Shown piece after piece: positions 9,001-64,000 of a DNA stretch of 64,000 nt. The stretch lies in assembly GCF_041260155.1 (NCBI RefSeq), contig NC_091936.1, positions 41,818,963-41,882,962 on the forward strand. Reading direction: 5' to 3'. The notes below the pieces were generated by a model. It was not told the DNA's origin. It saw only the letters and a program-made list of their open reading frames with translations, and ran no database searches. The DNA comes from Ptychodera flava (lineage: Eukaryota; Hemichordata; Enteropneusta; Ptychoderidae). Position numbers and translations under genes: made by a program. Each line of letters starts with the position of its first letter. Within the stretch, counting starts at the first letter, position 1.

Positions 9001-10484
9001 TTGCGATGAAAGAGGAAAATATGTGAATGTGATGAACAATTTATAGGTTTGATAAAAAAGAAGAACCCTCCATCGGAGCATCCATTACTCTGGTGTCAGT
9101 GGTGATGAACAATTCTTGACAGTTTTAAAACAATCAATATATACATACAATCAATCAAAATGTAGCTTAACAATTTCATCCGGCTGGTAACTTGTACTTG
9201 TTCCAAAGTTTAAGTCAATCTCTTGTCTGTGATGCACAAAAACTTTCATTTGGCACTCTACACCCAACAACTGTCAGCCCTTAAAAATGTCACCCAGCTT
9301 AGTATTTTAGTCATGGCTATATGATGTGAACATTTCAAGATTGTACTCACCGCTATCGTATTACTCCAGTTTTTCACAGCTTCTTTGGATCTTGCATGTA
9401 ATGCTTCTTTCTCCTCTCTCTCAGCCTGAATTCGTTGTGCCTCTCTACTTTTGCTTGAAAGCTGATCCTGAATACGTGCCCAGTCCTTCTTTGAAAGCAC
9501 CGTGACTTGTCTGAGGTTGGTACCAGTGATTCCCAGTGACAATTGTTGGTCATGTTCAGGTGATATGTCACCACTGCCGGCACTGTTTGCTGTGAGCATA
9601 ACAATAATTACATTGATAATGATGTCGTTATAATGATGGAGATTATATCTTATCTATCATAAAGTGGAATTGGAGCAAACTGACTTCCTAATTACCAAAT
9701 TAAAATCATGTATTTATTCTGTAAGACTTGCAATTTATTTGCATAACCTAAATTATTTTCATTTATCATGGTCCCATCAATCAGAATTAAATCCCTCTCC
9801 CCCAAAAAAAATCCAAGCAGTGGGGACATTTCCATCCCGCCTTGTGAGAGAAATCAAGAGAATACATTACTATTTTCTTGCCCAAATAAGGGATATGCAC
9901 ATCAAGTCGAGTCTGTGATTCAAGCGAACAAAAAGGTACATGCGAAACTTCTCTCCCCAGGCTCTACGCAGCGATTATAGTCAACGACAGAAAGGTTCCT
10001 CATTCTATTTGTTATTAGAACAGACATTGAGAACAGGATCAACGGTACGAGAGTGGATGGGTACGTTGTACCTCCAAGATGTCCGAATGCCTTAACGCCA
10101 GCTTATCTGTTTGTTTTACTGTTTCGTGATTTGTTGTGGTTTCCTGATTCGCTCTCTTTACCGTCCAACATGGCCGACACCGGCCATGATGGTCTGTCAG
10201 CCTGAAAGATTATCGCGATATGAAGACGGATCAAGTATAAATGCTAACGTTCTGTATATAAATGTTGACATAAAGAAACCATCACCATAACTGCCAATAT
10301 CGTAGAGAGGAAAATGTGATAAAAATGTAATTATTTTACAGAAAATAAGCCATGTCACTACTGTATGATCGTGATCCCATCCACCACAGTCCCGCCCAAC
10401 TCCACACACTCGGCTCGGCGCAAACTCACCCCTCGATTGTCCTCTTCTTCGTCCGTGTTTGACTACATCTGCCGACATCGACAT
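6056..10484 (-). CDS. CFAP210: Cilia- and flagella-associated protein 210 (CCDC173-like), complete, six exons
   Basis: Exons on the minus strand are 10484-10430, 9589-9351, 8891-8718, 8367-8162, 7543-7247 and 6767-6056. All introns are GT-AG, and phases join without a break to give 560 aa; the human protein is about 552 aa. The protein is one long charged coiled coil of the trichohyalin/plectin-homology type, rich in E, K, R and Q. Recognisable points are a basic start (KHGRRRGQSR), VLSKKDWARIQ near residue 50, and the C-terminal stretch GGIRPSYLVQD with the end RKRLGFVW. In vertebrates CFAP210 is a microtubule inner protein lining the doublet microtubules of motile cilia and sperm tails. CFAP45 has the same coiled-coil type, but the C terminus favours CFAP210. 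An imperfect X-box lies about 116 bp upstream of the ATG. Exon choice rests on splice motifs and phase, not transcripts. Confidence 0.87.
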
Positions 10485-14790: not shown

Positions 14791-15212
14791 GCAGATTTGA
14801 AGATGTTTCAAACTATTATATTTCTCTGCATAGCAACCACAGTTTCATTCTTTCCTCAGAATTCGATGTGTTTGGTACATGTAGCCAAAAATTAAAATGC
14901 TCACCTTTCTGTTTGCAAATTGAAAATTGCTGTCTTCAAAATCACAGCTTTCTATGGGTAGGACTGTCAAAATTCAGGGATTCACGTAATATTGTTCAGG
15001 GCTATCTTGATTCACAAACTTGATGGTGTTTGGTTGTTAATAAGTTTACTGCCTCCACGATGATAGTATATGGGAATCACAGTCGCAATTCTGCCGATTG
15101 AAAGCAGCTAAGATGATGATTTAGTTCCTCTCTAGGGTTCTGTCCATGATTCCCAAACAATTAAATGTTTTATAAATTAAATCATAAACTGTTTCATTTC
15201 AGTACAAACACA

Positions 15213-15959
15213 ATGGCACAAATTACATTGAGGAAGAAGATTCTGATGGTGTGTGACTTTGACCTGACAATAGTGGATGGTGACAATTCCGACACCTGGT
15301 TATGGAAACTGCTTCCAGATGGGAAAGTACCGGAGCCTTTAACCAAGCGCTATTCCGAACATGGGAGCTGGAATGACTACATGGGCGAGGTCTTCCAACA
15401 CATGCACAGCTTAAAGATCACTCCACAAGATATTATTGAGTGCATCAACCAAATGCCGTTCACAGCTGGAATGAAGGAATTGCTGCAATACCAATCCAAA
15501 GCCGACAATATCGACTTGATTGTGCTATCTGATGCCAATGCAGTGTTTATCAATTCCCGTCTAGAGGCTGCTGATCTGAGGCAGGGTGTCAAGAAAGTCA
15601 TCACCAACCCATCCTACTTCGATAATGAAGGATGCCTGAAAATTGAGCATTACCACAGCCATGGCTGTAGTAGCTGTCCTGTCAACATGTGCAAGAGAAA
15701 AATCCTGCAAGCATATATCAAACAACAGAAACAAGATGGTGTAGAATATGACCACGTATGTTATGCTGGAGATGGGAGCAATGACTTTTGTCCCAGCCAG
15801 TCCCTCGGTAATCAAGATGTGGTCTTTCCAAGGAAAGGATATGAACTAGTTGATATCATCTCTCTACATAAGAGTGAGGGCAAGGAGTTTAGTCCAAAAG
15901 TCATCCCTTGGAACTCTGGTTCAACAATTATTGAAGCTGTGAAAACAATGCTTGCCTAA
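15213..15959 (+). CDS. PHOSPHO2: PHOSPHO2-type HAD phosphatase, first tandem copy
   Basis: A single coding exon gives 248 aa. The ATG at 15213 is chosen because an acceptor (TTTCATTTCAG) ends at 15202; the longer open frame upstream is intronic. HAD motif I is DFDLT near residue 15, with the nucleophile and acid aspartates present. Motif II is VLSDANAVF, and motif IV is GDGSNDFCPS. The family's Cys signature HYHSHGCSSCPVNMCKR is present. Family members dephosphorylate small substrates such as phosphocholine, phosphoethanolamine (PHOSPHO1) or pyridoxal 5'-phosphate (PHOSPHO2). Length and sequence are closer to PHOSPHO2 (241 aa) than to PHOSPHO1 (267 aa). It lies divergent from CFAP210, with a second copy 6 kb downstream. 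Substrate is inferred. Confidence 0.9.
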   Translation: MAQITLRKKILMVCDFDLTIVDGDNSDTWLWKLLPDGKVPEPLTKRYSEHGSWNDYMGEVFQHMHSLKITPQDIIECINQMPFTAGMKELLQYQSKADNIDLIVLSDANAVFINSRLEAADLRQGVKKVITNPSYFDNEGCLKIEHYHSHGCSSCPVNMCKRKILQAYIKQQKQDGVEYDHVCYAGDGSNDFCPSQSLGNQDVVFPRKGYELVDIISLHKSEGKEFSPKVIPWNSGSTIIEAVKTMLA

Positions 15960-21676: not shown

Positions 21677-21791
21677 CAGAGATAGACGATGCAGGCCGAG
21701 ACAGACAGACAGATAGGCATGCAAACATTTATTATAGGTATCACTCTTTCAATTATTCTCTGTATTTTCACATATCATAACAGATTGTGCG

Positions 21792-22538
21792 ATGGCATCC
21801 AATACACTTGGCAACAGAGTGCTCCTAGCATGCGATTTTGATCACACCATCATGGATAAAAATACAGACACCTGGATCTGGAAACTTCTGCCTGGTGGAA
21901 AAGTGCCTGAAGAGATCACCAATCACTTTGAGCAGCACAACAGTTGGAGAGACTATCTGACAGAGATACTAAACTTTATGCACAGCCTTGGGATCACTCC
22001 AAAGCAAATTGTAGACTGCATCAAAGAGATGTCTTTCACGCCTGGCATGAAAGAATTGCTAAGATATCAATCAGAACATGACAACATTGACTGCATAATA
22101 TTGTCAGATTCCAATGCAGTCTTCATCGATGCTTGCCTTGAAGGTGAAAATCTGAGAGAATCCGTCAAACACGTAATAACCAACCCATCACAATTTGACG
22201 ACAGTGGATGCTTGAAAATCAAGCATTACCACAGTCATGACTGTCCACTCAACTCCTGTCCCAAGAATCTCTGCAAGAGAAGAGCCTTGCGGGAGTACAT
22301 ACAGGGACAGGAACAGGGTGGGGTTCATTACAGTCACATCTGCTACGTTGGTGATGGTAGCAATGACTTCTGCCCAAGTCTTACTCTCCATGAAAAAGAT
22401 TTTGTATTTCCCAGGATTGGTCATTCTTTAATCAACAAGATAAAAAGACAAAAGAATGAAGGGAAGGTTTTCAGGGCAAAGGTCATTCCTTGGAAATCTG
22501 GGGATAAAATTGTAAAAACTTTAAAGACTTTGATCTGA
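21792..22538 (+). CDS. PHOSPHO2: PHOSPHO2-type HAD phosphatase, second tandem copy
   Basis: A single coding exon gives 248 aa. The acceptor CATAACAG ends at 21783, 8 nt before the ATG, the same arrangement as in the first copy. HAD motif I is DFDHT, with both catalytic aspartates kept; motif II is ILSDSNAVF and motif IV is GDGSNDFCPS. The Cys signature is spaced differently, CPLNSCPKNLCKR instead of CSSCPVNMCKR. The two copies are clearly paralogous along their whole length but well diverged, so the duplication is not recent. An AATAAA at 22650 lies 112 nt after the stop. The likely role is hydrolysis of a small phosphate ester in the cytosol; the substrate cannot be told from sequence. Confidence 0.9.
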   Translation: MASNTLGNRVLLACDFDHTIMDKNTDTWIWKLLPGGKVPEEITNHFEQHNSWRDYLTEILNFMHSLGITPKQIVDCIKEMSFTPGMKELLRYQSEHDNIDCIILSDSNAVFIDACLEGENLRESVKHVITNPSQFDDSGCLKIKHYHSHDCPLNSCPKNLCKRRALREYIQGQEQGGVHYSHICYVGDGSNDFCPSLTLHEKDFVFPRIGHSLINKIKRQKNEGKVFRAKVIPWKSGDKIVKTLKTLI

Positions 22539-41960: not shown

Positions 41961-42311
41961 ACTTACGGCTGGTACAATGTGCAGGACTGTTGTGAGGAGA
42001 CTATATGTTTCTTAAATTGCCCCGAAAACCGTTAAAAATAGTCCCTAAAACGGGCAAACTTGACGTATTTTCCACCACTTCCGCGCACACAAAACGTGTA
42101 AGTATTGCAAGGCAAGTAAACACACGCGTTCTACGCAAGCGCAATCAAGAATGTCAATGCAATACCCACAATTTACCCACAATGCTTGAGGAAACAGCTG
42201 GTTTTCGATTTTGAAATGTCAAAGGTCAGCCGCCCTTACCTGGCGCCATTTCAAATGTAAAAACATACGATGCGTGTATCTCGATGACAACTGAAGATCG
42301 TACCTCTCGAC
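41961..42311. promoter_or_regulatory. Shared divergent promoter of ORMDL and PMS1
   Basis: On the minus strand a donor GTAAGT lies at 41966-41961, so the ORMDL leader exon ends at 41967. On the plus strand the PMS1 ATG is at 42312. The roughly 340 bp between is CpG-richer than its surroundings. It holds CACTTCCGC at about 42077 (ETS core), CTACGCAAGCGCAA at about 42131 (NRF1-like) and CCCACAATGC at 42176-42185 (ZNF143-like core). All three motifs are common in bidirectional promoters. The donor and motifs are seen; the promoter role is inferred. Confidence 0.6.
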
Positions 42312-42673
42312 ATGGACAACCACGCTTCGGATCAAGACAACAATATCAATGTGGAGATGAAACTGCTACCGGCATCTACAGTGAGGCTAATCACCAGCTC
42401 ACAGGTTATCACTTCGGTTGTCAGTGTGATCAAAGAATTGATTGAAAACGCTCTCGATGCCAACTCAACAAACATTGAAGTAAAACTTGTAAGTTTGTCC
42501 GTTTTCGTGGAATTCGAGGTTACTGTATGATACTGAATTTAATCGATCATAAAGGGGACGGTTTCTGGTGGTCTGCGCCAAGAGACCACCATAATGCGGA
42601 GTTTACAGTGACAGAGGCCATCGGTCATCTCCAGTCCTGTATTCCTCCTCGATCCTCAACCCCATGATCATTG

Positions 42674-42725
<52 letters not shown>

Positions 42726-45700
42726 AATCGTCATCGTCAATGATCACGACTTTAGTTTGCAACTAGATTAAACAATTGCAGATGCGAAAACCGGGCAAAA
42801 GTCGATGATAATCGGTGTTGATGACAGATGACAGATGTGACAAGATCTTTAAAGATTGATAACTTTTCTCAGGAGCGGGAAATGCATAATCCGCGGGAAA
42901 TGGAGTGCTTCAGAAGTTAAGCTAGTTTTTGTCAATAACATCCAGTAATAAATCACACTGAGATTTGTTAATATTTTTTGTTGACATACATTTGAGGTTT
43001 TTATATTAATTTGTATTTTGTTCTGTAATGGATATTTTAATTTTGTCCCCTTTCTCAGAAAGTCTGTTTATTTTCCTTCTATAGCCTATTTGTCATTGCT
43101 GTGAGGAGAATATTTTGTTGTCCCCAAATCACAAGAGTTTGCGTTCCTCTCTGCACTTTGCTTCATGAAAGAATGCTGCTTGGATATTATAGTCTGACAA
43201 AAAAAATAGCTTTTGCACAAACTGTCTATTTATTTATGATAAAAATAATCACCTTATCATTCTGTAATTTCATTTCCCTTCCCAAATTTTATTCAATTCC
43301 GTTTGCTGTTATGAAAAAATGTTGTTTTCTTTTCAATGACTTCTTTCAAATACTGTCAATATAATAACAAATGGTTATTTCTCTTGATTACACATTCAGA
43401 AATCAAAATTTTTTGACTTACTAATATCTCAGTCAATATTGTGATGTCTGTTTTTTTTTGTCTTTTTAACACCTGAAGGATAATTTTGGTTTTGACAAAA
43501 TCGAAATCAGAGACAATGGCACAGGCATCAAGCAATCAGACTCAGAGTACATGGCTCAGAGACATTACACATCTAAGATAACAACCCACACAGACTTGGA
43601 AAAATTACACACGTATGGATTTCGAGGAGAGGCGCTGGCATCACTCTGTGCAGTTGCCATGGTTACCATCACCACCAAGACAGCTGACGATGTCATAGGA
43701 TCAACATATACCTTAGACCATCAAGGAAAAATCACAGCAGTAAAGCCTACACCTGTAAATCAAGGTATATCCATAATCAGTGTTTCTGCTGGCTGCTTGT
43801 CAAGTCATAATATGCAACTGTTGAAGTCTGTGCCAAGGAAAGCCAGACTATTGGCAGTGCCAAATTTCATAGTACTCCCAATGTACTGGTATCCATTGTT
43901 CACACAGCCGACAAAAGCGTTGATACTTAGCACAGTCACTATGTACATTTGCATATTGCTCTGTAACAATACCAAAATAAACAGCTTGTTTATTGTATTC
44001 CTTACCATCCCAGCATCCTTAGTTGTACGTGAGAAAAAATTTTCTTCACCTTGTGTGAATAGAAAGCTAATGTGCATGGCATTGAGAATGGATATTTGGT
44101 TCTAACTTTTTCTATGAGTCCATTATAGTGAATTACAGTTTTGACTGATGAATCTTCAGCCTTTTCGTCAGAGTTGATGTCAACTAAGCGAATTTAATTG
44201 CTATGATGGTATGATTGCTATGACATTATACAGCTCAGATTACACACTTCATATTACATACTATTATTAGTATTATCATTAAAAGCTTCTTTAAAGTGCA
44301 CTACACATATGTCTCTGCACGCTGTACATGACTGAAAGAAAAAAAATACATGACTAAAATGAGAGCAAGGATTGTTTTTAAAAAAATCACAAATATCACA
44401 AGAAATTTGGAACTCAAGTAAAAAATAGCGTAAAATGAGCAAAATGGCTAAAAATCACAGTCAATAAAACTCAGTAAAAAGGTAAGTCTTCAAAGCACGT
44501 TTAAAACATTCAACATTTTTTGCAGAGCGAATCTCTGATGGCAATGAATTCCAAAGGAAAGGAGCATGAACAGAAAAGGCCCTATGGCCATAGGACTTAT
44601 TATACTTCCCTTTTGGCGGGACTAAACGTAACTTTTCCATGGACCAAAAGTTTCTTGATGGAACATACAACTCAATTAAGTTGCTCAAGTATATGAGTGT
44701 AATACCATTAATAATTTTGAAAGTGATTAACAGAACCTTGAGTCTTATTTGAGCTTCGATTGGAAGCCAATGCAAGTCGATCAACACGGGTGTAATATGG
44801 TCATATTTGTGTGACTGAGTGGCGAGACATGCAGCAGCATTTTGAACTGACTGCAATCGAGAAAGCTGTTCTTTTGAGACTCCGTACAAGAGACTATTGC
44901 AGTAGTCCAATTTGGATATAATGAAGGAATGGACCAATGTCTCGGTGATACCTCTGTCAAGTAATTTACGGATCTTGCTGATACGGTACAAAGAATAATA
45001 CATATAATGCAATTTAAGTGGTGTAGAAATCTGAAAAGTTTTTTCACTAATTTCAAGAGTTCATACCACAGTAGACTTTTGTATGAGATAACAGGCTGGC
45101 ACCCTGGTAGATTTTACTAATGTTCCCTTGTCGTGTTATCAAAATAGTTGTACTGGAGGACAACAGAAAATGAGTTCTTCAGATATCATTTACCTATCTC
45201 TTCAATCCTCATAGCACAAACACTGCCACACATGAAAAATTAAATAATTAATCAGACCAATCCGTGGTTGTTATGGAACTAGGAAGATGTACATGGTAAC
45301 GTGTACTTTACCTCCTCACACTGCATTGCATCAAAAAGTCAAAAAGTGCATCTATGTTTGACATATAAGATGAGTACACACATACATGTATGCATCTATA
45401 GGGTCAACTGGATATGTGATTTTCTGTCAGTTAGATATTTAGGTATTTGGTGTTTCAGTGGACAACATGAATTCAGTGAACATTTTCCTGCTCCCCAAAA
45501 GAATACTTCTTGGTGAAAACTGCCAAAAATTACAGTTTGAACAGTGTCATAGGTCTGCAGTACATCTACTGATTGGTCCATGGCCTTGCAGTTAATTTAA
45601 AAGTCTGACAGAAAGATGAAATAAAAGCTGATAGTACTCACATTCAATTCTTTATTGAATGAAACAAGGGTGTCCATGCAATGCTGTTGACTGAATATTT

Positions 45701-48700
45701 TTTGCTGGGAAACATCAGAAATATAATGACGGTAGAACACAAGTTATTGTCTCTTGTCAGCACTTGCCTCACTTGCAAACCCCTCTGTCATTCTTGTGTT
45801 CCTATCAGCAAATATTGACACAGCGACTGATGGCAGGCTGTAATGATAAAATGGCATAATGCAGATATTTGTCAAATGCAATGACATTTATTGAGGTGTC
45901 TATAGTTCAATCACAAAGATGTGGGGAAATTACAAATCATCTGTAGATGGAATGAGATAAGTGTGAAAAGTACTGGAATAACTGGAATAAAATGGAAAAG
46001 TGGGCCAAAGATGGGAAAAACCATGACTAGGAAAAAAGGTTTTTCTTCTTTTGGCCATAACTGGATGTATTATTTTGTTTTCCTTTAGAACTGTTTAGAA
46101 TCTTAGAGTTTTTCGTAATCACAGTAGCTTGCTACGCTTTACCATTTTTTCCCTGAGTACATTCACACATTTACAATTTACAACACTTGTGCCACATATT
46201 TTCCAACATGTTCATCAGAAATTGTGGCATCACTTTCACAAATCTAATCAGCACTACTGATTCAGCCAATTATTTTATTTCTTTGATAGGTACCACAGTT
46301 ACAGTAAGTCAGCTGTTTAAAAACATTCCTGTCAGGAAACAATATTACAACAATACAAAACGACGGAAGGAAGAGGTGAAAAAAGTGGAAGATTTAGTTA
46401 TGGCCTTTGGATTGATCAGGCCTGGTGTGAGATTCACACTGCGCCATGACAAAACAATGGTTTTGCAAAAGAATAAAGTGAATAACAGCAAATCCGCACT
46501 CCTGAGCATTCTTGGAACTAATGTGATGTCACAGATGGAACCTGTCTTGTACACAAATGAAGATTCACAGGTAACCATACCGACCATTTATAAAATACCT
46601 GGTATTTATATATATGATAAACTTTTCAAAGCACCTCATATTTTGGTTCATTGAGTCATGTACAATGTGTAATATCCAAAAGGTTATTAATTAATATCAA
46701 ATAAGGGTAAGACAGATATCCCATTACTGAAGCTATGTCAAGATTCAAACAACAGGTACATACATACAAAACCATGAAGGTGATGTCAGTACTTAAACTC
46801 TGAATGTACTGGTGGTCCTTATGCTGTTGGTAATTGCTGTTAATCATTGTGGCAGTGCTCAAGTTAAATTGATCTTCAATCTCACTCCAATTTGAGATTA
46901 ATGTTTGCAGTGCCAACAACTGTAGTCTAACTTCAAGCAAACAAAAATGTTTGCAGTGATGTCAAATGATTCACTATCAGCTCTCTGTATTTTCTCTATC
47001 CACATGTATGTGGTTCTGACTAGATTCATAATTATCTGTATAGTTGTCCATCGACTCCATTGAATCACAACTGATTGAAAATAATTAGTTTTAGAGCTTT
47101 CATGATAATAGTTGAATGACTAATAAGAAACTCAGAGGTCAACTGAATTTGAGCTCAAATTATGATAATAACTGAATATATCTTTTTAGAACATTTCCAT
47201 CTTTTTTAGGTTGAAGCATTTCAAGACTTTAAAAAACATTCACCGAATGCCAAGATCAGTCATTTGCAAGCCGATAAAAATTCGGCAACTGAGATTTAAG
47301 GTGACAGACATCCAAAAAAACCAAAAGTTTCAACTGTCAATGGCTTCTTGTATAAGTTGATGGTAACTTCCTTCCATAAAAATAATAGAAACCATCTTAT
47401 ACTGAAAATTTTTTTGAATTTATAGAGAAGCAAACTGCTTCAACTGTACCAATTTTTAAAATTCAACATACCAGCCACTCATTTTTGGAAACATTCAATT
47501 TTCAAAGAGGCAAAATATCTCAGCTGCTGGGTCGCTTATCAACACAATGAAGGGCAGTTCTTCTGAACCCACAATGTTGACAAACAGAAAATAAGAGAGG
47601 GTAAATATCTACTCTGTAAGATAGCAACTGAAGATAGACAAAGTAAACATCTAAGGCAATTTTATGTGATTTATTTACTTAAGAAAGTTTGCCTAGTATG
47701 TGATATGACTCAAGAATACTTAAGATTACAGGTATTTCATTGCAGATGTGAGATATAAACAAATGTTTATCAAAAAAATAAATAGCCATAGATTACAAAG
47801 TTAGATTATGACACAGATTGTGATGACATTTGGATTATAGTAATCAGATTCAGTGTCATGTACATACAATCATGCAAGTATGCAGTCTCCCAATAAAGGT
47901 CCAATTCATTACTAATATTCAATGTACACTGTTTGCATTAGATGAATATTACCCGGAAGTTATCACTTAAAGTCATCTTTACTGACTGCTTTGTCATATT
48001 TGTCAATCCTACGCTAATGTTCTGTATCATCAAATCAGTATTTTATGCAGTAATTTTGATAAAAGTGTTTGTTCATCGCACTATTCAGGTCAGTTGGATT
48101 GTTTGCTGATGTCTCTAAAGTAGAGGCAATTCAAAAACAAACCTTTTTTATTCAGGTTATTAATTAAAAATTTAATGTCTTCCAGCTGATTACAGATCTT
48201 CTGTTTTTGTCATCCAGGTTATCATCAGTGGGTTTGTTCCAAAATCAGGATCTGACGTTCAGATGACTAGCCGTCTGACAAGCGACCGTTGCTTTGTCTT
48301 TGTAAACAGGAGACCTGTCAATGTCAAAGAAATTGAAAAGGTAACACTGTTGGTTGGCATAGTTTCCAAGAATTATGATTTTCAGAAAATTCTTCAGAAC
48401 CTGAAAATAGTATTCATTGAAAAATGAGTTTTTAAAATATATGGGCTTCATGCACTTTTACAGGATATTAAACAGTTGCATTTTAATTGTGTGTGTAAGT
48501 TCTTCTAAGTCACTGACAAAAAGTCTTGAATTTGTAGCCCACCTATTGCACGATGGCCTCTTTAAGGAGCATATGTAGGTTTGCCATTGGCCTTTTTATC
48601 GCAGTTGGTTGTTTCGGTTTTCTTGCAAAAGTTTACTTTGAACAGAGAAAGACAATGAAAAAAAAAGAATTAGCGTGTCATGGTGGCTAGAACCATGGTT

Positions 48701-51700
48701 ACTAAGTTTAGAATTACTGTGAAACTGATGAAGAAAAAACAGGATTTGTAGTCAAATATTGCAAACATGATTACAAGGTATAATATCAGTTATCCATATT
48801 TGGATGTTTTTTGCCATTTTACAAATTAATAATATTTGAATGAAACTTCTCATATATAACTTTTAAGCTTCTCTTTGAAATTTAAACATGACTCCGATTT
48901 TTAATATAGAGTATCACACACAGTCACAGTTCCTCATGTCATTTAAAAGCACTGGGAAACCATCACATTTTAGTTTTTAAGAGTTTACCCAGGGTTCCAA
49001 CCAGTATACTTTATGAGTCCATAAACCACCAATTTCCAGACCACACTGCTCACTGTTAACGATTCATAAACTGCCAAAGAAAGTATTCACGGCTTTGTAA
49101 TAGATTAAGCCAGTCTTTAATCTCTGTGATTGAGTTGAAAAATTATCATTTTGAGGTTTTCCAGTAAACAGTCTGTTCATGCTATTTATATCTACCTCAC
49201 AGTAAAAGAAATATTGTCGTCAGCACCAAGCAAAATGAGTGTTTTGAACAACAATGCTGCTAAATGTGTAAAAAATCAGTGACAAAGTCCATAAATTTTA
49301 CATATAGGTTGTACTTGATAAATAGTTATGACCGCAAAATTTACATTGTAATGAGTACTACCTTTTTTCATTTGGACCATTTAAATATATTCTGGTGGGC
49401 TACGTGACCATTACCATGACTACATAAAAATTTTGATAGTTTTAATATTTAATTTAATATATACATTGTACTAGTTCTTTACTAATAATGAGTTGTCACG
49501 TTGCATATTTGAATTTGAACAAAGATGTATGAAAAGGGATAGCAAATATCCTGAACAGCTACCACTCAGTAAAATTAACATCACACAGTTGTAATTTGCT
49601 GTTATTGAAGTGGAAAGTTGGTCCCTAAGAGTGATTCAGTTACTCACCGGCCTTCGGCAAATGGCCGGTTTTTTTGCAAATGTCCTAAAGTTTTTTTGTA
49701 ATTTCTGACAAATGGCCGGAAAAAATTGTCACAAACCAACTTCAATCGGCCAGGCCCTGAGGCACAAAGTTGCAATCCCCGTCGGCTGTAGTTTAGTGGC
49801 TGCCTCCTCAACAGAAAACTACAGCTAAAAGTAAAATGTTGTAAGATGTTGAAACAGTTCACTCTCCTTTCTACAAAGTTACAAATTCCCTGGTACGTGA
49901 AGCAAACATTGTTGCAGTTCGATACGTCCATGAATACACTGACTCACTTATGTGAGTCCCAGTCATCTATGAGTCCAAATTTTACCTACTTTGCTTGAAT
50001 CAAAATTTGGCCTGTAGCTATACTCAGTTTGATAGTAAAACCATAATTTCAAAGGAAACTTTCACAAACAGAATCATAATACAAGGGAAGAGGAGAAAAA
50101 CTGAGGTTTTCTCAAAGGTCGAATCTGGGTCATCTCATGTGATGTCATGAATGAAGACCCTTTAAGTACACAATTATGGTTCAAAAGAAACCACCTATGG
50201 AGGTCCAATAGGTACAATCTTATGTTCAAAGGTCCTTGGTGCCTTCCAATTTAATGGTATTTAGCTTGACTGTCAGTTTTAAATCAAAAGTTTATTAAGA
50301 GTCTTGGCAAAGGGACATTGTGAACAGTAGTTGCAATAAGCATATCCATTTTCAAATCGTCACATTTGAGAACTGCAATTTTTGCATGGTAACTTAACAT
50401 CAAAGCAACAATTCAAAAGTAGAACTACCGGTATGAAAATTGCCCATTTGGCCTATTTCAAATTGCTATAACTTCTACAAGAAATGATGTGATTCTGGAT
50501 GATTTTAATATTTTGCAGATTCCAACAGTTTTAATGACGCAATAGTGAACATTACCGCGCAGACAGTTCTTGATGATATCAAAATATCAAATGAAAATAT
50601 TTCTGGGCTAAAATGTTATCATAATCATTAATACAATGATTACTTTTAAAAACATTGGGAAATTAAATGAACGATATCATTGTGTCTTGCTTGTCTTACA
50701 TAATTTGGGCCTGACCCTTTTTGTCCTCAAGAAAAATATTATGCTTAAGATGCTATTGAGCCTGCTTGATCACAACTACCGTATGACACAACACCAGGGC
50801 CTTAAGGATGATAAATACCAAATCGTTCATTTTTCTGTCAAATTTTCAAAATTCTCTGAGAATACGCCTTGAAGTAAGACCCAGAATTGAGATGTGTCGC
50901 CAGTTCAAGATAAGGAATGGTTTCCGTGTAATTCACGATTTTTAAAAATCAAAACAAATGCACGTGGCTATCCCGGTTAAATCGAGGAGCTTTGTAAACA
51001 TTGTGGACACATTTGCATTGCTATTTCCATAATCCATCTTGAGTGACACAACGTTGCGTTGCACTGGGTAATTTACATAATGACCTGCTGTGACTTCTCC
51101 AAACACCAGGATTACTTCCGTCTGTAAACAATGAACCGTAATTAAATGTTTGTCGAAGCCTAGTCCAATAAACAAGTATTCGTACAGTTCCAGACATAGT
51201 CTACACCAGAGAGCAAGTCATTTTTCTTAGTGTGGTCAAGACATCGTGTCAACGACGATTTCTCAGCAGTGCGACGTTTTATCACTCTTTGCTTAGGGTT
51301 GGTCGGAGCCTGCACACGCCGCTTTACGGTGGTTGACGTCTTTTTCGCAATGTTAGATAAACAATTACACAGTGTTCATTCTAGGATTTAAAAACAACGG
51401 GCCACTGTTGGCCCCAACTCCTGTCCCAAGGGGGCCATTTTAGAAAATCGGGGGCCATCATCATCACACATGTAAAAACCTTGAATTTTCTGCAGAAAAT
51501 ACAATAGTCTATCAAGTCAAGAAAAGGAGAATACTGGAGATCGGGCCCCCCCGTAACCATGGATGTAAAAACATCCATGCCGTAACCAACCAAGCCTACT
51601 GCAAAGTAGCCCTGCGTACGATGCTGTGTGTTCCGCTACAGCTAATAGCCCCGCTCAGTGGGGCTATTTAATAGCTGTAGCGGAACACACAGCATCGTAC

Positions 51701-54700: not shown

Positions 54701-55950
54701 ATCTTATGGAAAAGCTTTTCTGTTGCAGATGACCCTGTCTGACAGTTAAAATTTAAAGTTCTAAAGTAATTTTCAGAAACAAAATTACAGTGAAGATACC
54801 ACAGTTATGTGATATCCTCACTGTAATTTGTCTGTGAACCTCACTTTGAGACTTGAAATTTCATCTTTCTGACAATTCACGGGATAAACAGCTCAGAGAT
54901 GTATTCACATTCAAAATTTATTGTTTCATTTTGTTTGTTTCAGATTTCCAAGTGTATTGTAGGTTCTGAATAAAGATACCAGCCTTGTTGGTTACCAACA
55001 AGGCTGGTACCTTTATGGTGTATATGTGTGTGTTAAAAACAATATTCTCTGACACAAACGCTGCGATTAGGTCAACAAGTGACCACAAAGGATTATGGGA
55101 TTGTCCTAAAGATTTTTCTCGATTTAGGACATATGTCCTAAGCATATACTTCAGCAGCAGAATCCTGCCTAAGAGTCAGACCGAGGTTTGAAAATTATCA
55201 TGTAGTAAACATCAAGTAGCAATAGTAAGTTCTTTAGCTTGTATGATACCTGTATCTAACAGGTTGCTATGTGTTACATTCAAGGAAAGGCCACCAGTAT
55301 TCATAACAAAGATCTCAAATTTTCTATGTGAGCCAAATGCAACAAGACACAGCAGATTGTCACAATTTTTGTCTGATTAGCAAATTGCTGTTTTATTTAT
55401 TCAAAAAACTACATGTATATCACTTTCATGGAGCATTTCCACAAATGATAAATGAACACTTACAGTTTATGCAAATGCTGAATGTTGAATTTGCTGAAAA
55501 TTCGCTTTCTGCCCGAATGACATCTTCAAATAATTGCAAATATGCAAGATCAAAAATAACAAATGATAATTGGTGTAATTTTGGCATTTCAAAAATAACC
55601 ACCTATATTCATTTTCACCGGACTACTTTTAAAATCAAATAAACTCCTTGGAGACATTCCAGGTTGCAAGTTTATCAAGTATTGAACTTTTCATTCAATT
55701 TGACTGAGCAGTGGTGGATGAATCCGGTACAGAGAAAAGATCAACAATCAGAGTTATGCAGCGCCATCTATTGTAAATGATATGCATTCTTTCCTCTTTT
55801 CAGCTGGTTCGGCAATATTACAACAGTGGTACAAGCAGTAGTTTTTCACATCCTCGATGTCCTGTTATATTTTTGAGCATAATTGTACCCCCTGATGTCG
55901 TTGATGTCAATTTAGACCCAAACAAAACAACTGTGTTGCTACATAACAAG
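42312..55950 (+). CDS. PMS1: PMS1, MutL-family mismatch repair protein; N-terminal five exons
   Basis: Exons are 42312-42488, 43479-43764, 46290-46570, 48218-48340 and 55804-55950: 338 codons, GT-AG introns, phases consistent. These cover the whole MutL N-terminal module: ATPase motif [13 protein letters not shown], motif [10 protein letters not shown], motif [15 protein letters not shown], then [12 protein letters not shown] and the transducer-domain end [15 protein letters not shown]. Alignment to remembered human PMS1 is continuous through this point. MutL proteins are GHKL ATPases; PMS1 pairs with MLH1 in the nucleus, and its own repair role is minor in mammals. The first ATG adds 15 residues before the methionine that matches the human start (42357). 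The HMG-box and C-terminal dimerisation parts are not found in the remaining 8 kb. The open frame running past 43764 is intron read-through. Confidence 0.94.
42673..42726. repeat. (CAT)n trinucleotide microsatellite in PMS1 intron 1
   Basis: About 17 near-perfect CAT units. Confidence 0.9.
44255..45030 (-). mobile_element. LINE (CR1/L2/Jockey-like) 3' fragment in PMS1 intron 2
   Basis: Minus-strand frame 45012-44461 reads as the C-terminal part of a LINE reverse transcriptase: [54 protein letters not shown] and [11 protein letters not shown] 3' tail follows and ends in ATAATACTAATAATAG-type repeats at about 44260, the usual end of such elements. The body is 5'-truncated but this part is still open over about 183 codons, so insertion is fairly recent. 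It is antisense to PMS1. Confidence 0.88.
48341..49640. other. PMS1 intron 4, first part; nothing recognised
   Basis: AT-rich, no exon-like stretch between the exon ending at 48340 and the repeat region from 49650. Confidence 0.5.
49651..49910. repeat. Dispersed repeat, copy 1
   Basis: The segment from about 49803, CCTCAACAGAAAACTACAGC to TACAAATTCCCTGGTACGT, recurs at 63864-64000 with few changes. Upstream, in both copies, lies a CCCTG-containing junction preceded by different sequence (here with several GGCAAATGGCCGG motifs). Family unknown. Confidence 0.6.
51607..51709. mobile_element. 103-bp fold-back transposon with 9-bp target duplication
   Basis: The arms are near-perfect inverted copies of about 48 bp, TAGCCCTGCGTACGATGCTG... 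at both ends. ACTGCAAAG flanks the element at 51598-51606 and 51710-51718. Arm identity suggests a young insertion. Size class, TAG...CTA ends and 9-bp duplication match the element at 29876-29945, with unrelated arm sequence; Mutator-like origin is inferred. Confidence 0.85.
51920..54080. other. PMS1 intron 4, middle; no gene recognised
   Basis: CpG-richer than its surroundings between about 51.9 and 53.3 kb, with open frames up to 104 codons but no known motif and no splice-bounded exon. A fragment near 53970-54110 ends in TTTGGCTAACGAGTTGGCTA, a text like the subterminal part of hAT-type elements. Confidence 0.35.
54779..54831. repeat. Fold-back hairpin
   Basis: ACAAAATTACAGTGAAGATA... 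pairs with a right arm reading ACAAATTACAGTGAGGATA... inward; about 24-bp arms, two mismatches and one indel, 4-base loop. Confidence 0.6.
54970..55016. repeat. Fold-back hairpin
   Basis: ATAAAGATACCAGCCTTGTT pairs with a right arm reading ATAAAGGTACCAGCCTTGTT inward, with almost no loop. Confidence 0.6.
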
Positions 55951-56566
55951 GTAAGTAGTGGTTTTTATAAATTTTCAAGTGTGAATGAAATCCACAAATT
56001 AAAGTCAGGGAGACTTTTTGGTGATATGTAGGTCATAACATAAATGCGAATAATATAAGTCATCAAAAATTTCAAATGATTTAAAAAATGTTTGTGACCT
56101 GACCGAGCAATGTGGCAGGCTTCTTTGTGGTTTGTCAGGGTGATGTGAAGGGCGCCCTCTAACTTATGACACATTGTTTGACATCTCTTCGAGTCAATGA
56201 AGGAATTTCTAGAAATCTCTTGCATCAGCACTCTACCAGTAAACGTTGAATGTTTTAAGCTTCTCACATATATGACTTTCATGAGTTGCTGGCATGCCAA
56301 TCCAGCTAAGAACGCATACTGGTGCTGTGATGAAAGAAAAGTAGCAAACATAGCAAATTGTGCTGAAAAATCTTTATTGAAACAGTTAAAATTATAATAA
56401 ATTTAGGTAATCAAATGTAACTGAAGTTGATATAGTCTCCCTACCATATGCTGTATAGAAGTAGAATAGATGAACAGTGGTTTCAACATTAAAAGCAACA
56501 TCCATGTAAAATTGTTACGAACATATTCAAAGCTGTTTTTTCCGTTTCCCCATTATCTATGTTAAA

Positions 56567-56711: not shown

Positions 56712-57238
56712 CTGCAATGAATTACTACATACTAGTAACTAATGGTAGAAAAGAAACAAATCAAATTTTACAGAATAGAAAAACGTGAACATCTTTGATT
56801 TGATGTCCCGATATTGAGTGATCAACTCAGAGAGGTTCAGTTACATGTGATTTGAGACCCTCTTATGGACACCTGTTTATGGCGGCAAATTATGCAGCCC
56901 TTGGCTGGTTGTGTAACCTATTTTATAAAAACAATCTCTCAACCCTGAGGGAAATTCACCTTGGATATTATGTGATGCAAAGGTAACACCATCAATGAAG
57001 CATCAATAATTTCACAGAGTAATAAACACCCCTACCAAGTCCACCCTCTCACCACCATGGTTTGGCCCAGACCCATTGTTATCAATGGTGATTGTGGATA
57101 AAGTTACAGGGTATCGGGTATGTACAGGTTAAGGTTCACGCAACAGAATGTAAAACCTTGCTACAAATAGGATGTGTCTGCTTTCATGAAATATACTGTC
57201 AGTTTAACCAGAGATTCAGGTTCTGTTGAGTTTGAAAA

Positions 57239-57280
57239 AAATAAAACGACTCCCAGCATGCATGTCACATCACCTTTATT
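57239..57280. terminator. Facing poly(A) signals, plus and minus strand
   Basis: AATAAA occurs on the plus strand at 57239-57244 and on the minus strand at 57280-57275. The minus one is about 380 nt past the stop of the modular gene. If both are used, transcripts from the two strands converge here. Confidence 0.4.
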
Positions 57281-57656
57281 TCCATCATTCAATTCAGTTT
57301 GACGTATTCAGAACTTTGTGAACCCTAAACAAAATATTGCTTTTCTGTTTAGTACACATAACAAGAAGAGTGAAGGTGGTGTAGGGCAAATTCTGTTTTG
57401 AAAACTCAAGGAAAGGGCAAAGTTTCATGTGAATACCAAAATACTTGTGTGTGATCATGTTTTCTTGAACTGCTGGACTAATATCCCAGCAAAGAAAGTC
57501 AATGGAAGGGAGGAACCTAAATTTACTCAAAACTGATCTTTACTGTTATAATTCTAGTAACTATGTTTTTGTATCACAAAATGCTTACAACAGGGAAGCT
57601 TGCAGTTGCGTTGATTTCTCTGCCCCAGCATCGTGTATTTCCTTTTGTGATTTTAT

Positions 57657-60600
57657 TTATTCTGTGACCTCAATCACATGCTCATTTCCATCAAAGTAAT
57701 ATTGTACAAAGGTTAGATCGTGATCAATACCATCACATTTTGTGATTCTGATTACAACTCTGTGAAAATCTGGTGAACTTTTGTTGACATATTGCCTCCG
57801 AATAACCCTACAGGCCTCGTTTGCTGAGCAGCCATTGGAATCAACTTCCTGAACCTTCTCCAGTGTGTTGGAGTACAAATAGTAAAAAGATTTGGTTCCC
57901 TTTGATTGCCACAGTCCCAGACCATCATCCAGCAAATGCTTCCAATTGGTCGACTCTGAAGTGTAACACAGAAATGCTACATTGTGACAAACACCAGTTG
58001 GAGTCACTGTGGCAATGTTATCTTTGTCACCAGGATGTAACATTGTCATTACTGCTTCAGCAGTTGCTATTCCAGACTTTCTGCCTTTAAATAATATCGG
58101 CAAATCAGGGTTATCGTTGTAGAACTCTACTTCAGAGTCTTCTTCAGGCATTTCTCTGGATAATAAATATTTTAAAATATGTCGTCAAAAAGTATTCCGA
58201 AGTATTTCTAGTCTTATTCTGTGAAGTTGTGAGATCACAAATACTACCCTAATTTCAAAATATGTATTTCAAAATGATCTAAGGTGGTAATGCATATGTC
58301 ATCATATTTTCCAAATGTTGAAAAAATTCATTTACACTTGCGTGTGTGGTCCTTTTTGGTTCATGTTCTTGCTTTGAAATGTATTAGACATTTCATGTCA
58401 TAATTTTTCAAAAATTGGATAAAATATTATCCAGTTCAGTCAATACAGTACCATTTTTGTTCATTATATTGCCAAACACTAAAAGTATTTCATTTTGGGA
58501 GTGACAATTTGAAAACGTATGTTCTTTCAAATATATATACAGTACCTGTCTGCTAATGGTTCACATTCAGAAATGGACTGCATGGCGTCAATAGATGCTG
58601 GTATACTTGTTGTGGGTGTTCTGATCTGCAAAATTAAATGACAACAACACCAAATAAGTACATGTAGATAGTACCATTCAATGGAAAGTAGGTGATGAAT
58701 GTTGAGAAGAAAGATCTTTGACAAATTGAAAATGAAAATTTGATCAAGATTTCAGAAAACAATTGCATTTTTGCTGAGAATACATCTGTAACCACTTATG
58801 TTTGTTTTTTTGTGAATGATTCCATTATCATAGTGGTCTTATTTTTAAGATCGTATAGGAATAAATACATGTATATGTTAAGTATAGTATTGTTACCATG
58901 GCAAAACATTACATGTACAAGGTCAAAACATGTAAGGTAAATGCCTCCTCAATGTCTTCAAAAGAGTACCGCATGAGTGTATGTATTGAATGTCAAAATG
59001 ACAGTCCCTCCACTACTCTGACTGTGTCAAAGTAAAGGATGTGAACATTGATTGGTTGAAGGGTGACATATGATAAAATGCAAGTATCTGATTGGCTATT
59101 TGGATCTCATGCTAGATTTATAAGTGTGGACAGAGCAACATCACTCGACTTTTATGTTGTACTATTTTTATCAGTAGATACAATCTTCTTTAGCACACTT
59201 CACAAATGAAATGGATATTTCATTCCTCGGTCACTTGCTCTTGAGAAACAGTTACAAATTTTGCTTACTGCCTGTGAATTTGTCATTTCCATCTGGTTTT
59301 GAGGAAAGCTGTCACTTGATGTTCCATTTGTGACACTACTGTCACCTTCCAGTGGAATACCTGATCTGGACACTTGTGAGGTTGACGTAAACATTGCCTG
59401 TATCTCTGCAGACTTCACCTTTCTTAATTCTGATTGTGTGGGTTCATCGACTTCAATTGTATGCTCCTCGGCATCAAAGAAATACTGCACAAATGTCAAC
59501 TTGTCATCAATCCCATCAGGCTTTGTCACTCTTACAATCACTTTGTGAAAGTCTTTGGACTTTTTGTTGATATATTGTCTCCTTGTGACTTTATAGGCCT
59601 CATGTACCGAGTCATCACTATCATCAACCTCTGAAGTTGTGTGCTTGTAGAATAGTGTTTTGGTCCCCTTAGTTTCCCAAGATCCAAGACGGTCATGCAA
59701 TATCTCCTTCCAGTCTCTCCATTTTGTAGTGTCACACAGAAATGCTACATTGTGACAAACACCAGTTGGAACAGCTGTGGCAATGTAACTTGTGTCTCCA
59801 GGTTTCAATATTATGTTCACAGCATCAGCCGTACGGAGTCCTTTCGTCCGACCTTTAAGATATATCGGCAAATTTTTGTCATTGTTGTAGAACTGTACTG
59901 GGCCTCTACGTACTTTATCAGTTATTCTGAAATTTAAAAAAAAAGTGTCAATCATGGCACTGTGCTCCCATTTGATGAGAACAGAAGTACATTTAACACA
60001 CATAATGTGATATCTATTAGACAAGAAGTTTCAGAGAGAAAGGTATTTTGGTAAAAGTTGAGATATTTGATATGTATCAATACTGTATCAATACAATATT
60101 GCTAATTTTGCCTCAATGTAGACAATATTAACTTAGAAAATCGCAAGGGACATGCATAGCACATTAGAAACCTATCGGACAAGTGGTTTCTGAGACTTTT
60201 AACCCTAAACAGCAAACATTGCCTTAAAAACGATATATCTTGCGAATTTTGTCATGATTTGAACGAACTTGGATATATTTAAATATCATCTCCATGAACC
60301 AGCATACCACAATTCAAACCTATCACACAAGTAATTTCTGAGAAAGTTCTTTCATTAAATATGATAAATTTTATATGAATATTGCAATGTTGGTAATATC
60401 ATCAGGATTTGTAAAATCTAACTTACACCAGCCCTTGAGTCCTGTAAACTAAATATCAAGCTATATGGTACGTGGCTTTGGAAAATTATCTTTTTTTACC
60501 ATTTTTCACATTTTCAAGCTAATGTACCAATTTTTGACTAAAAAAAAAAAGTGTCCAGTATCTCCTTTTACAATTTCATACCAAATACCAATTTAATAGA

Positions 60601-62454
60601 TCCCAGGTCCCACCGCAGCGGGCTTTAAATAATAGGTGCAACTCTTTTCAAATCATAAAAGTGGACAGATATACATACATGCATACCGGTACATATGTAC
60701 AAACAACAGACGACAGAAGTCGTATGATCTGATAAACTTCTGTTGCCATAGGCAAATAGGAACTTAAAGCTGATGTGCATATGCTAACACTATCAGATTA
60801 TCCTCATGTTTTTTCCCTGTTCATTTTTTAATATATTTTTTAATGTACATATTTTTTTTCTTACATCTTGACACTGTGTGAGAAGAGCGTTTGGTCCAAC
60901 AGTCTATCGAATTTAAATAAAAGACTAATAACAATAATAATAATAGTCATAATAATGTCAAGTTTGAACAAAATTGGTTAAGACACAAAGGAGCAATATT
61001 GGGCGCTGACAGAAGAGTCTGGATCAATCTGAAATCTACATTCTTTCGACATCTACATTCTTTCATACATCTATACAGTACCTGTCCGCTTGTCCTGGTT
61101 CATGTTTAGAAGTCAGCTGAATGGTCTTAGTCACTACTGTACCTGTTGTGGGTGTTCTTATCTGCAAAATTAAACGACAACAATGGCAAGTGGGTAAATG
61201 GTTTTGTTAAAATAAAATAAAAGAAATCAATGAAAGTTGAGAAGAAACACCTTGACAAATGAAAACAGAAGTCAAGATTTAGGAAGACAATCTGTCTATA
61301 GCATTTTGCTGAGAATGCATCTGTAATCATACAAATATCTTCACTGTTGATAATCTTTATTTTTGAGTCAATTATAATTTAACATGCTAACATGAAATAC
61401 CAGATCAAGTTTTGTTACATGTAATCGGAAGAATTTCAATTTGGTCAATCATTTCACATTCACACATAAAAGTTGAAGGTCAAAAAAAATGAGCTCAACG
61501 TCTCCTCAGAGATGTCATATATAAGATATACAATATGAAAGTGATTATTATATGTGACAATTAATGTACACCAAACAAAGGTGGCAAACATTGATTGGTT
61601 GAAGAGTGACATGTGACAAATGCAAGCATCTGATTGGCTATTTAGATCACAAGCTAGAATTTAGGTCTGGACAAAGCAAAAACATTTCACTGTGGTGCTG
61701 TACTATTTTTATCAGTTGATAGAATCTTTACAAATGAAACGGATATTTTATTCCTAATTCACTTTCTGTGGATAAACAGTCACGAATTTTGCTTACTGCC
61801 TGTGAATTTGTCATTTCCATCTGGTTTTGAGGAAAGCTGTCACTTGATGTTCCATTTGTGACACTACTGTCACCTTCCAATGGAATACCTGATCTGGACA
61901 CTTGTGAGGTTGACATAAACATTGCCTGTATCTCTGCAGACCTCACCTTTCTTAATTCTGATTGTGTGGGTTCATCAACTTCAATTGTATGCTCCTCTGC
62001 GTCAAAGAAATACTGCACAAATGTCAACTTGTGATCAATCCCATCAGGCTTTGTCACTCTTACAATCACTTTGTGAAAGTCTTTGGACTTTTGGTTGATA
62101 TATTGTCTCCTTGTGACTTTATAGGCCTCATGTACAGAGCAGCCACAATCATCAACCTGTGTCGTTGAGTACATGTGGAAAAGTGTTTTGGTTCCCTTGG
62201 TTTTCCAAGACCCTAGACCATCATGCAATATATCCTTCCAGTTTGTCCATTTTGTGGTGTCACACAGAAATGCTACATTGTGACAAACACCAGTTGGAAC
62301 AGCCGTGGCAATGTAACTTGTGTCTCCAGGCTTCAATATTATGTTCACAGCATCAGCCGTACGGACTCCATACTTCCGGCCTTTAAGACATATCGGCAAG
62401 TTTTTGTCATCATGGTAGAACTGTACTGGGCCTCTACCTACTTTATCAGTAATT
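57657..62454 (-). CDS. Unrecognised modular gene: three repeated-domain exons with linker exons, 5' end not in view
   Basis: Exons on the minus strand: domain C 62454-61797 (658 nt), linker 61161-61082 (80 nt), domain B 59926-59269 (658 nt), linker 58625-58546 (80 nt), domain A 58155-57657 with the stop. GT-AG junctions and phases (domain in at 2, out at 0; linker in at 0, out at 2) join them into one frame of 658 aa, open to the right. Each domain has LPI-LKGR, then GVCHNVAFLCDT, a W-LGSW-KGTK block, VTRRQYIN-KS-DFHKV, and LTFVQYFFDAEEHTIEV. Domains B and C add a Ser/Thr/Gln-rich tail of about 55 residues; domain A stops just after the core. Linkers begin IRTPTT. There is no signal peptide or membrane segment in view. 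I do not know the family; the W-basic-aromatic pattern is only loosely reminiscent of CG-1 DNA-binding domains. Separate tandem genes are possible but fit the splice sites less well. Confidence 0.7.
58546..62454. repeat. Tandem genomic duplication, about 1.4 kb units
   Basis: Segment 62454-61082 (domain exon C, 635-bp intron, linker) and segment 59926-58546 (domain exon B, 643-bp intron, linker) match through exons and intron alike. For example, both introns share ACATTGATTGGTTGAAG and ATCTGATTGGCTATTT. Domain exon A is an older, more diverged relative outside this duplication. Confidence 0.85.
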
Positions 62455-62469
62455 CTGAAATTCAAAAAA

Positions 62470-63740
62470 GCAGAGTAGCTTAATCAAAACTTTGAAATGC
62501 AGGCATTTTGAATAATTGTTTGAAAATTGGTTTAACAACAAATGTAATACATTCTACTTGTACAAGTTCTTCATTTTGTCCTTATTAATTTCTTGATTTA
62601 TTTGAGGTATTTAGGAATACCGAAAACTGACAAGTGAGAGACCAAGTGCATGACACGCAGACTAAAAAATATAGTGTGGAACTCTGTAAAATATTGGACT
62701 CTGCAGGACGGTGCCCCCAGTGATATGAATGGGGTACAATCATCAAGTACAACTACACGGGTTCCCGCTAACCATTCAGACGTGTTTGATCAATGAAAGT
62801 CCAGCAAAATATATGCCAATCAAATGAAACAACACAAGAGGTTGCATCTTGCAGTTAAGGTATGCTAAATTTACAAAAACAAATATAATTTCAGGTTCAG
62901 TTGTCATCGCAAAAGTTACAGATACTGTCCCTTTAAAAAGAAGGTAGACATGCTTTTCTCTACAGTTCATACCAGCAAGATTTCACTAAATTCCCACATA
63001 CACATATTCTTTTACTCCTATCCAAAACTTTAATTTAATATGAGTTATCATTGCACTTTGATTGTTGGGTCTGCAGACCCTAAAATGGCCAGCTAGATTC
63101 TCAATCAATGTATGGTTGAATGCACAAAGTTATATAGCGGTGTGGGACATGGCTGTGTTGCAACTGCTATTCATCCAATGCATGGTTGACTGTTCAAAGA
63201 ATACCGTAATATAGCAGAGTAATTGATAACAATATCCCCTGCACTATACATCCCTGTTGCAAGAGCTCCAAATACAGTGGCTAGAATAATCACACACTAG
63301 GAAATGAATATACTCCAATCTTCCCAGTTCTTGCTCATCTACTGTGGTTACCAGTATGTCAGAGGTTCAAGTACAAAATTTGCCTGTTCACTTTCAAAGC
63401 TATTCACAGCAAGACTCCTGCACACATTTAAGCCTGATGTGCCCATCCATCCCCTGTGGTATGAAACTTAACTTCAACAACCAAACTAGCATATCACATG
63501 TGAATATGCCTTTACATATGAACATGTCTTTTCACATGCTTTTTCTCAACTGACTATAAATGGATATCAGAGAGATGAACATGTTTGCAAAATTTTAAAA
63601 GAAAACTGAAAGTGGCAATCAGTGTCACAGAGCAAAACCTTTAGTTTTGGATCTTGCTGCTATATAAAACCATGTTGATTGACATCATCTTTGGGTGATG
63701 TTGAAACAGTAGGATATTGATGTTCCGCCTTTGCCATTAC
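62470..63740. other. Upstream of domain exon C; no further exon seen
   Basis: I looked for another 80-nt linker (an IRTPTT-type start after TTTTGCAG) and found none here, so the preceding exon is different or lies past the window end. Confidence 0.4.
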
Positions 63741-63749
63741 CAGCAGATC

Positions 63750-64000
63750 CAGGGCTCCCGCTACCCGATCGCCAATTAGCCAAATGCGAAAGAAAGTTAA
63801 AAATGGCTACAAAAATTCCAGTTTGGCGAACATAGTGGCTAATGAATTTTTACTGCCCTGGTGCACCTCAACAAAAAACTACAGCTAACAATAAAAAAGT
63901 TGTAAGATGTTGAAACAGTTTACCCTCCTTCATACAAAGTTGCAATGTATTGAAACACTTCACTCGCCTTTCTACAAAGTTACAAATTCCCTGGTACGTA
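63750..64000. repeat. hAT-like end plus dispersed repeat, copy 2 (runs off the window)
   Basis: CAGGGCTCCCGCTACCCGAT at 63750 and TACTGCCCTGG at about 63852 bracket about 110 bp rich in AATTAGCCAAATG and GTGGCTAATG motifs, hAT-terminus-like. From 63864 to the window end the sequence repeats 49803-49905, here with part of the unit doubled. Confidence 0.5.

Follow-up and report, generated by a model that had tools for sequence, protein, structure and literature searches.

A tandem-domain gene assembled from exon pairs

Within the 64-kb stretch of DNA analysed here (contig NC_091936.1, positions 41,818,963 to 41,882,962; hereafter the window), five exons on the minus strand, C-L1-B-L2-A, form a single continuous open frame with GT-AG splice sites and encode three copies of a shared domain. 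Domain exon C (61797..62454, minus strand; 658 nt; acceptor tttcag, donor gtaagc) is entered in phase 2 and left in phase 0, its residues 1-164 making up the domain and residues 165-219 a Ser-rich tail. It is followed by linker exon L1 (61082..61161, minus strand; 80 nt; phase 0 in, phase 2 out; acceptor ttgcag, donor gtactg), which reads IRTPTTGTVVTKTIQLTSKHEPGQAD. The same arrangement recurs in domain exon B (59269..59926, minus strand; 658 nt; acceptor tttcag, donor gtaagc), 89% identical to C at the protein level, and in linker exon L2 (58546..58625, minus strand; 80 nt; acceptor ttgcag, donor gtactg), which reads IRTPTTSIPASIDAMQSISECEPLAD. Terminal domain exon A (57657..58155, minus strand; acceptor atccag), 58% identical to C, is open to a TAA stop at 57657-57659, is devoid of the 55-residue Ser-rich tail and terminates the protein. 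These exon coordinates, lengths and phases agree with those of the original prediction, which was made from the letters of the window. Introns are in phase 2 ahead of every domain exon and in phase 0 ahead of every linker, such that single exons are asymmetric (2-0 for the domain exons, 0-2 for the linkers) and only the domain-plus-linker pair, or cassette, is symmetric: it totals 738 nt (246 codons, a length divisible by 3) and is flanked by phase 2 introns on both sides. Two AATAAA motifs at 57652-57661 (minus strand) overlap the stop of exon A and would permit a very short 3' untranslated region.

Exon C opens at its acceptor, and its frame lacks an ATG before the core even when the upstream extension is included; the start of the gene is therefore expected upstream and the number of repeats is best given as at least three. 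Searches within the window with tblastn and blastn found no further domain copy, and a self-comparison of 57001-64000 no third cassette. We considered whether the copies might instead be three separate genes or pseudogenes with their own starts, given that the second codon read in exon A is an ATG and that the open frame of B reaches into the upstream intron, where in-frame ATGs occur, so that A and B could start alone. C has no such ATG, however, and the five exons share one frame with matched phases, similar splice sites in both cassettes and neither stop nor frameshift, while the portion of the tail-linker region that lies in the domain exons is conserved as coding. Separate genes are thus very improbable.

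The stop-free runs holding C (251 aa) and B (276 aa) exceed the chance maximum of 183 aa, the longest run seen among 200 first-order Markov sequences, each 9 kb long; that of exon A (175 aa) by itself falls below it. Ratios of nonsynonymous to synonymous divergence (dN/dS) are 0.34 for B vs C, 0.32 for C vs A and 0.38 for B vs A, with a synonymous excess by Fisher tests of p = 5e-4, 6e-8 and 3e-6, respectively. Together with the run lengths, these values rule out a chance open frame. The dN/dS ratios, and exons B and C that align free of gaps where the domain-linker intron is gapped (see below), place the gene under coding constraint; it is a constrained coding gene that extends past the edge of the window. 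The claim that the copies represent a real shared domain is therefore upheld, and as far as the DNA itself can tell we regard the gene structure and the purifying selection on all three copies (dN/dS 0.32-0.38) as established.

Duplication of the cassette

Self-comparison yielded one long match, between 58522-59948 and 61058-62476 (78.6% identity over 1465 columns). The first copy of the duplicated cassette (58522..59948, minus strand) comprises exon B, the intron and L2 and the second (61058..62476, minus strand) exon C, the intron and L1, in each case flanked by short pieces of outer intron (22 nt and 24 nt). The match ends 24 nt past the linker donor and 22 nt past the domain-exon acceptor, and the outer introns are unmatched further out. 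Its boundaries hug the exon pair, so that, as judged from this alignment, it was the cassette that was duplicated, and the frame-neutral pair of the original prediction is borne out by both the 2-2 phase and the cassette-wide extent of the match. Identity between exons B and C reaches 92.8% over 657 nt with zero gaps, whereas the domain-linker intron shows 76.4% identity and 94 gap columns. Linkers L1 and L2 are of equal length and have their first six residues, IRTPTT, in common; their DNA is only 74% identical. Over their final 55 codons (59269-59433 and 61797-61961, minus strand), B and C differ by one synonymous and two nonsynonymous changes, with a dS of 0.03 vs 0.21 in the domain; such near-identical synonymous sites are suggestive of gene conversion or of a splicing constraint.

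The one sequence examined holds a single duplication (B/C) besides an older paralogue, A, and variability in repeat number, as first described, is a putative property of the protein. Same-phase flanking introns are described as allowing modules to be gained or lost in frame (symmetric exons; PMC2394523). The tandem duplication of symmetric exons in animal genes is alike in that same-phase introns let a module duplicate or drop in frame; it differs in that the unit here pairs two asymmetric exons, domain plus tail (2-0) and linker (0-2). The logic of the cassette duplication is otherwise ordinary, that of a textbook symmetric module.

Searches for known families and relatives

Pfam and NCBIfam scans of the three domain copies returned nothing of weight. 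Against the sequences of the PDB, copy C had a single match, to a Bcl-2-like protein (E 1.3), and a profile built from the three copies had none, such that the domain was assigned to no described family in these three libraries. PHROGs gave weak matches only (best E 0.013). Relatives were sought in viral, prokaryotic, phage and plasmid sequences, and negatives there say little about animals. Of the stretches retrieved by peptide-pattern scans (84 viral, 107 prokaryotic), tblastn confirmed none. A looser pattern, GVxHNVxFLxD, hit three viral stretches, which by eye we take to be one phage polymerase reading frame and which scored at most 1.3 bits with the hidden Markov model (HMM) of the domain in the matching frames; the same pattern with DT added hit one prokaryotic stretch (L004; domain HMM at most 2.5 bits). 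The tblastn searches of copy A against phages and of copy C against plasmids gave no match, nor did model 1 find a viral structure model of like fold at E <= 0.001. Literature text searches with peptide strings of the domain were likewise without a match, and it is for such strings only that we claim absence from print.

One explanation for the origin of the domains is that they derive from a MULE-type DDE transposase family of marine invertebrates, more precisely from its N-terminal DNA-binding part, the gene being a domesticated or decaying piece of such elements. Uncharacterised transposase-like proteins of corals and lancelets display the motif order PTGV..NV.F..D ... DD.G.W. A scan with a MULE-core pattern hit one viral stretch (L005; HMM at most 4.1 bits), which we judged not related, and the viral and prokaryotic scans as a whole gave no relative. 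No Pfam transposase was found at E 0.01 in the 10 ORFs (open reading frames) scanned out of the 255 of at least 60 aa in the window. The gene stops at its TAA right after domain A, so that no DDE core follows it, and any such core would lie upstream, past the edge of the window. The introns and purifying selection favour a host gene. We hold a MULE origin to be rather unlikely; it concerns origin and is compatible with the WRKY-like fold discussed below. PMC4350883, citing Babu et al. 2006, describes WRKY, GCM1 and FLYWCH domains as one superfamily with a shared fold and a link to transposons.

A possible WRKY-like fold

The absence of a family among the sequence libraries tried leaves the domain unrecognised at that level, as first proposed; its fold, by contrast, may be recognisable. 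Two structure models of low confidence predict the strand order of WRKY domains and superpose over near full length on WRKY structures (PDB 2ayd, 7z0r and 8k31). Aligned to the WRKY chains is a signature-like segment of copy C (62187..62234, minus strand; residues 74-89; DILHDGLGSWKTKGTK), found at the equivalent place in B and A, whose coordinates were derived from residue numbers by hand and confirmed against the sequence. At the aligned site, the sequence is WKTKGTK in C, WETKGTK in B and WQSKGTK in A, or W[KEQ][ST]KGTK, which is similar, not identical, to the reported WRKYGQK variants WKNNGNT and WKKYGNK (PMC4350883). Every copy has W-x3-G-x-[KT] at the same aligned position, and the remaining ORFs of the window (20,743 residues) contain it once; the three copies being paralogues, their common motif counts as one observation, not three.

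When only the WRKY core was used for profile comparison, nine columns aligned, WQSKGTK on WRKYGQK, at E 0.34. With the preceding strand added, a local match of HLLDDGLGLWQSKGTKSF to DIVNDGY-RWRKYGQKSV was obtained at E 0.038 for a single comparison, 5 of 200 column shuffles scoring as high. Our own template-global profile alignment scored 25.7 against WRKY, compared to 2.8 +/- 5.8 for 300 column shuffles, none of which scored as high, and 21.5 against GCM1 (2 of 100 shuffles as high). The FLYWCH zinc finger (PDB 2rpr) was set aside on a score of 7.0 (47 of 100 shuffles as high), no Pfam match and no C2H2-type motif in any of the three copies. Scored singly, copy A reached 38.3, copy C 37.3 and copy B 18.4 vs a mean of 7.2 and a maximum of 22.3 for 106 comparison segments, among which none scored as high as A or C and five as high as B. 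These segments, each 153 residues long, were cut from stop-free frames (160 aa or longer) in the window and in stretches L001-L005; frames of this gene and microsatellite (YIYIYI) frames had been removed beforehand, some segments are not real proteins and L001-L003 are near duplicates. Gap costs of the template-global alignments were picked once and left untuned.

Several points weigh against a WRKY-like fold. The local match has a program probability of 1.4% and the global mode of the same comparison gave no signal (93 of 200 shuffles as high); WRKY was, moreover, tested after motif and structure had pointed there, so that the shuffle counts are not blind. None of the three copies reached the Pfam gathering score for WRKY; the WRKY HMM gave 3.4 bits for C (on the motif), 2.6 for A (on another segment) and 0.2 for B. 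The WRKY zinc pattern C-x4-7-C-x20-32-H-x-H/C is found in none of the three copies, while both WRKY control chains, taken from the PDB, match it. Judged from the order of the strands and from where the structural alignment ends, the cysteine positions might correspond to Asn120 and Asp125 and the first histidine to the invariant His155 (copy C numbering). This assignment is uncertain, as the sequence aligner favours another register past the first strand; the full zinc set is kept in neither register. For lack of this set we do not count the domain among the WRKY zinc fingers. It may have the fold of WRKY domains and their DNA-contacting strand in common with them, their zinc motif being tentatively absent. 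The WRKY-like reading finds moderate support, chiefly in one segment of about 17 residues and in the low-confidence fold. Another fold unrelated to WRKY (hot-dog-like, PH-like or new), in which case an animal-lineage domain would be repeated as a multivalent adaptor, is a serious possibility at somewhat below even odds.

Proposed function and comparison with known DNA-binding domains

We propose, with a probability of roughly 0.4, that this is a host gene for a beads-on-a-string nuclear protein with tandem WRKY-GCM1-like domains. The protein would consist of at least three domains of about 155 residues joined by flexible Ser/Thr-rich linkers of about 80 residues, each domain tentatively comprising one beta strand, a short helix and a four-stranded antiparallel sheet with W-x3-G-T-K on its first strand. 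By analogy with WRKY domains, this strand would enter the DNA major groove, and several domains per chain may confer multivalent, spacing-tolerant DNA binding. The array would grow by duplication of the phase 2-2 cassette, whose symmetry would also permit in-frame skipping by splicing. DNA binding, nuclear location, multivalency and alternative splicing are properties that we only infer. Rather doubtful is the wider proposal that animals have an undescribed family of DNA-binding domains, WRKY-like but without zinc, which spread through a gene by duplication of an exon-pair cassette, differ in unit number between species, individuals or splice forms, and keep the W-x3-G-x-K strand with other packing in place of the zinc site.

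WRKY domains place their first sheet strand in the DNA major groove, and group I WRKY proteins likewise carry two domains per chain. With plant WRKY1, WRKY18 and WRKY33 the present domains have a D-I-L-x-D-G-x-x-W-x3-G-x-K segment in common; they differ in one additional residue between DG and W, in W[KEQ][ST]KGTK in place of WRKYGQK and in the lack of the C-C-H-H set. The host is also probably an animal, whereas the non-plant WRKY hosts named in the abstract of PMC4350883 are diplomonads, social amoebae, fungi and amoebozoa, a list in which animals do not figure. The same source, citing Babu et al., places GCM1 (PDB 1odh) in the WRKY superfamily as an animal member. In our template-global alignment, SSWAMRN of GCM1 falls on GSWKTKG. 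GCM1 domains are zinc-bound and have large inserted loops, unlike the domain described here. FLYWCH has been recorded for some animal MULE groups (PMC6446971). Neither GCM1 nor FLYWCH entries are among the 50 structural matches listed per model, an absence that carries no weight as evidence. Should the WRKY-like reading be true, a plant transcription-factor fold would also exist as a zinc-less tandem array in a probable animal, which would bear on the kinship of WRKY, GCM1 and FLYWCH domains with the DNA-binding parts of transposons, and the gene would be one in which binding valency shifts by one clean exon-pair duplication.

Other features of the window

We take the window for animal DNA, probably that of a marine invertebrate. 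Four plus-strand ORFs (42288-42527, 43470-44102, 48176-48424 and 55777-56028) have MutL-type matches (HATPase_c_3, DNA_mis_repair), two of them above the curated cut-off, and presumably are exons of a PMS1-like gene. This gene runs tail to tail toward the tandem-domain gene; after its exon end near 55949 comes gtaagt, which indicates that the PMS1-like gene continues, and the tandem-domain gene may sit inside it or next to it. A 199-aa ORF inside the PMS1-like gene (44464-45060, minus strand), without a Pfam match at E 0.01, looks like the end of a LINE reverse transcriptase. Further away lie two tandem single-ORF Put_Phosphatase (PHOSPHO-type) genes at 15165-15956 and 21738-22535 (plus strand; frames of 264 and 266 aa) and, at 6059-9653 (minus strand), charged coiled-coil-like ORFs with one TPH match under its cut-off, which we take to be CFAP210-like. 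Dispersed repeats are also present: stretches of 63866-63999 match 49806-49898, in the same orientation, at 87-88% identity, and 57040-57132 resembles copies near 7603, 17960 and 31205.
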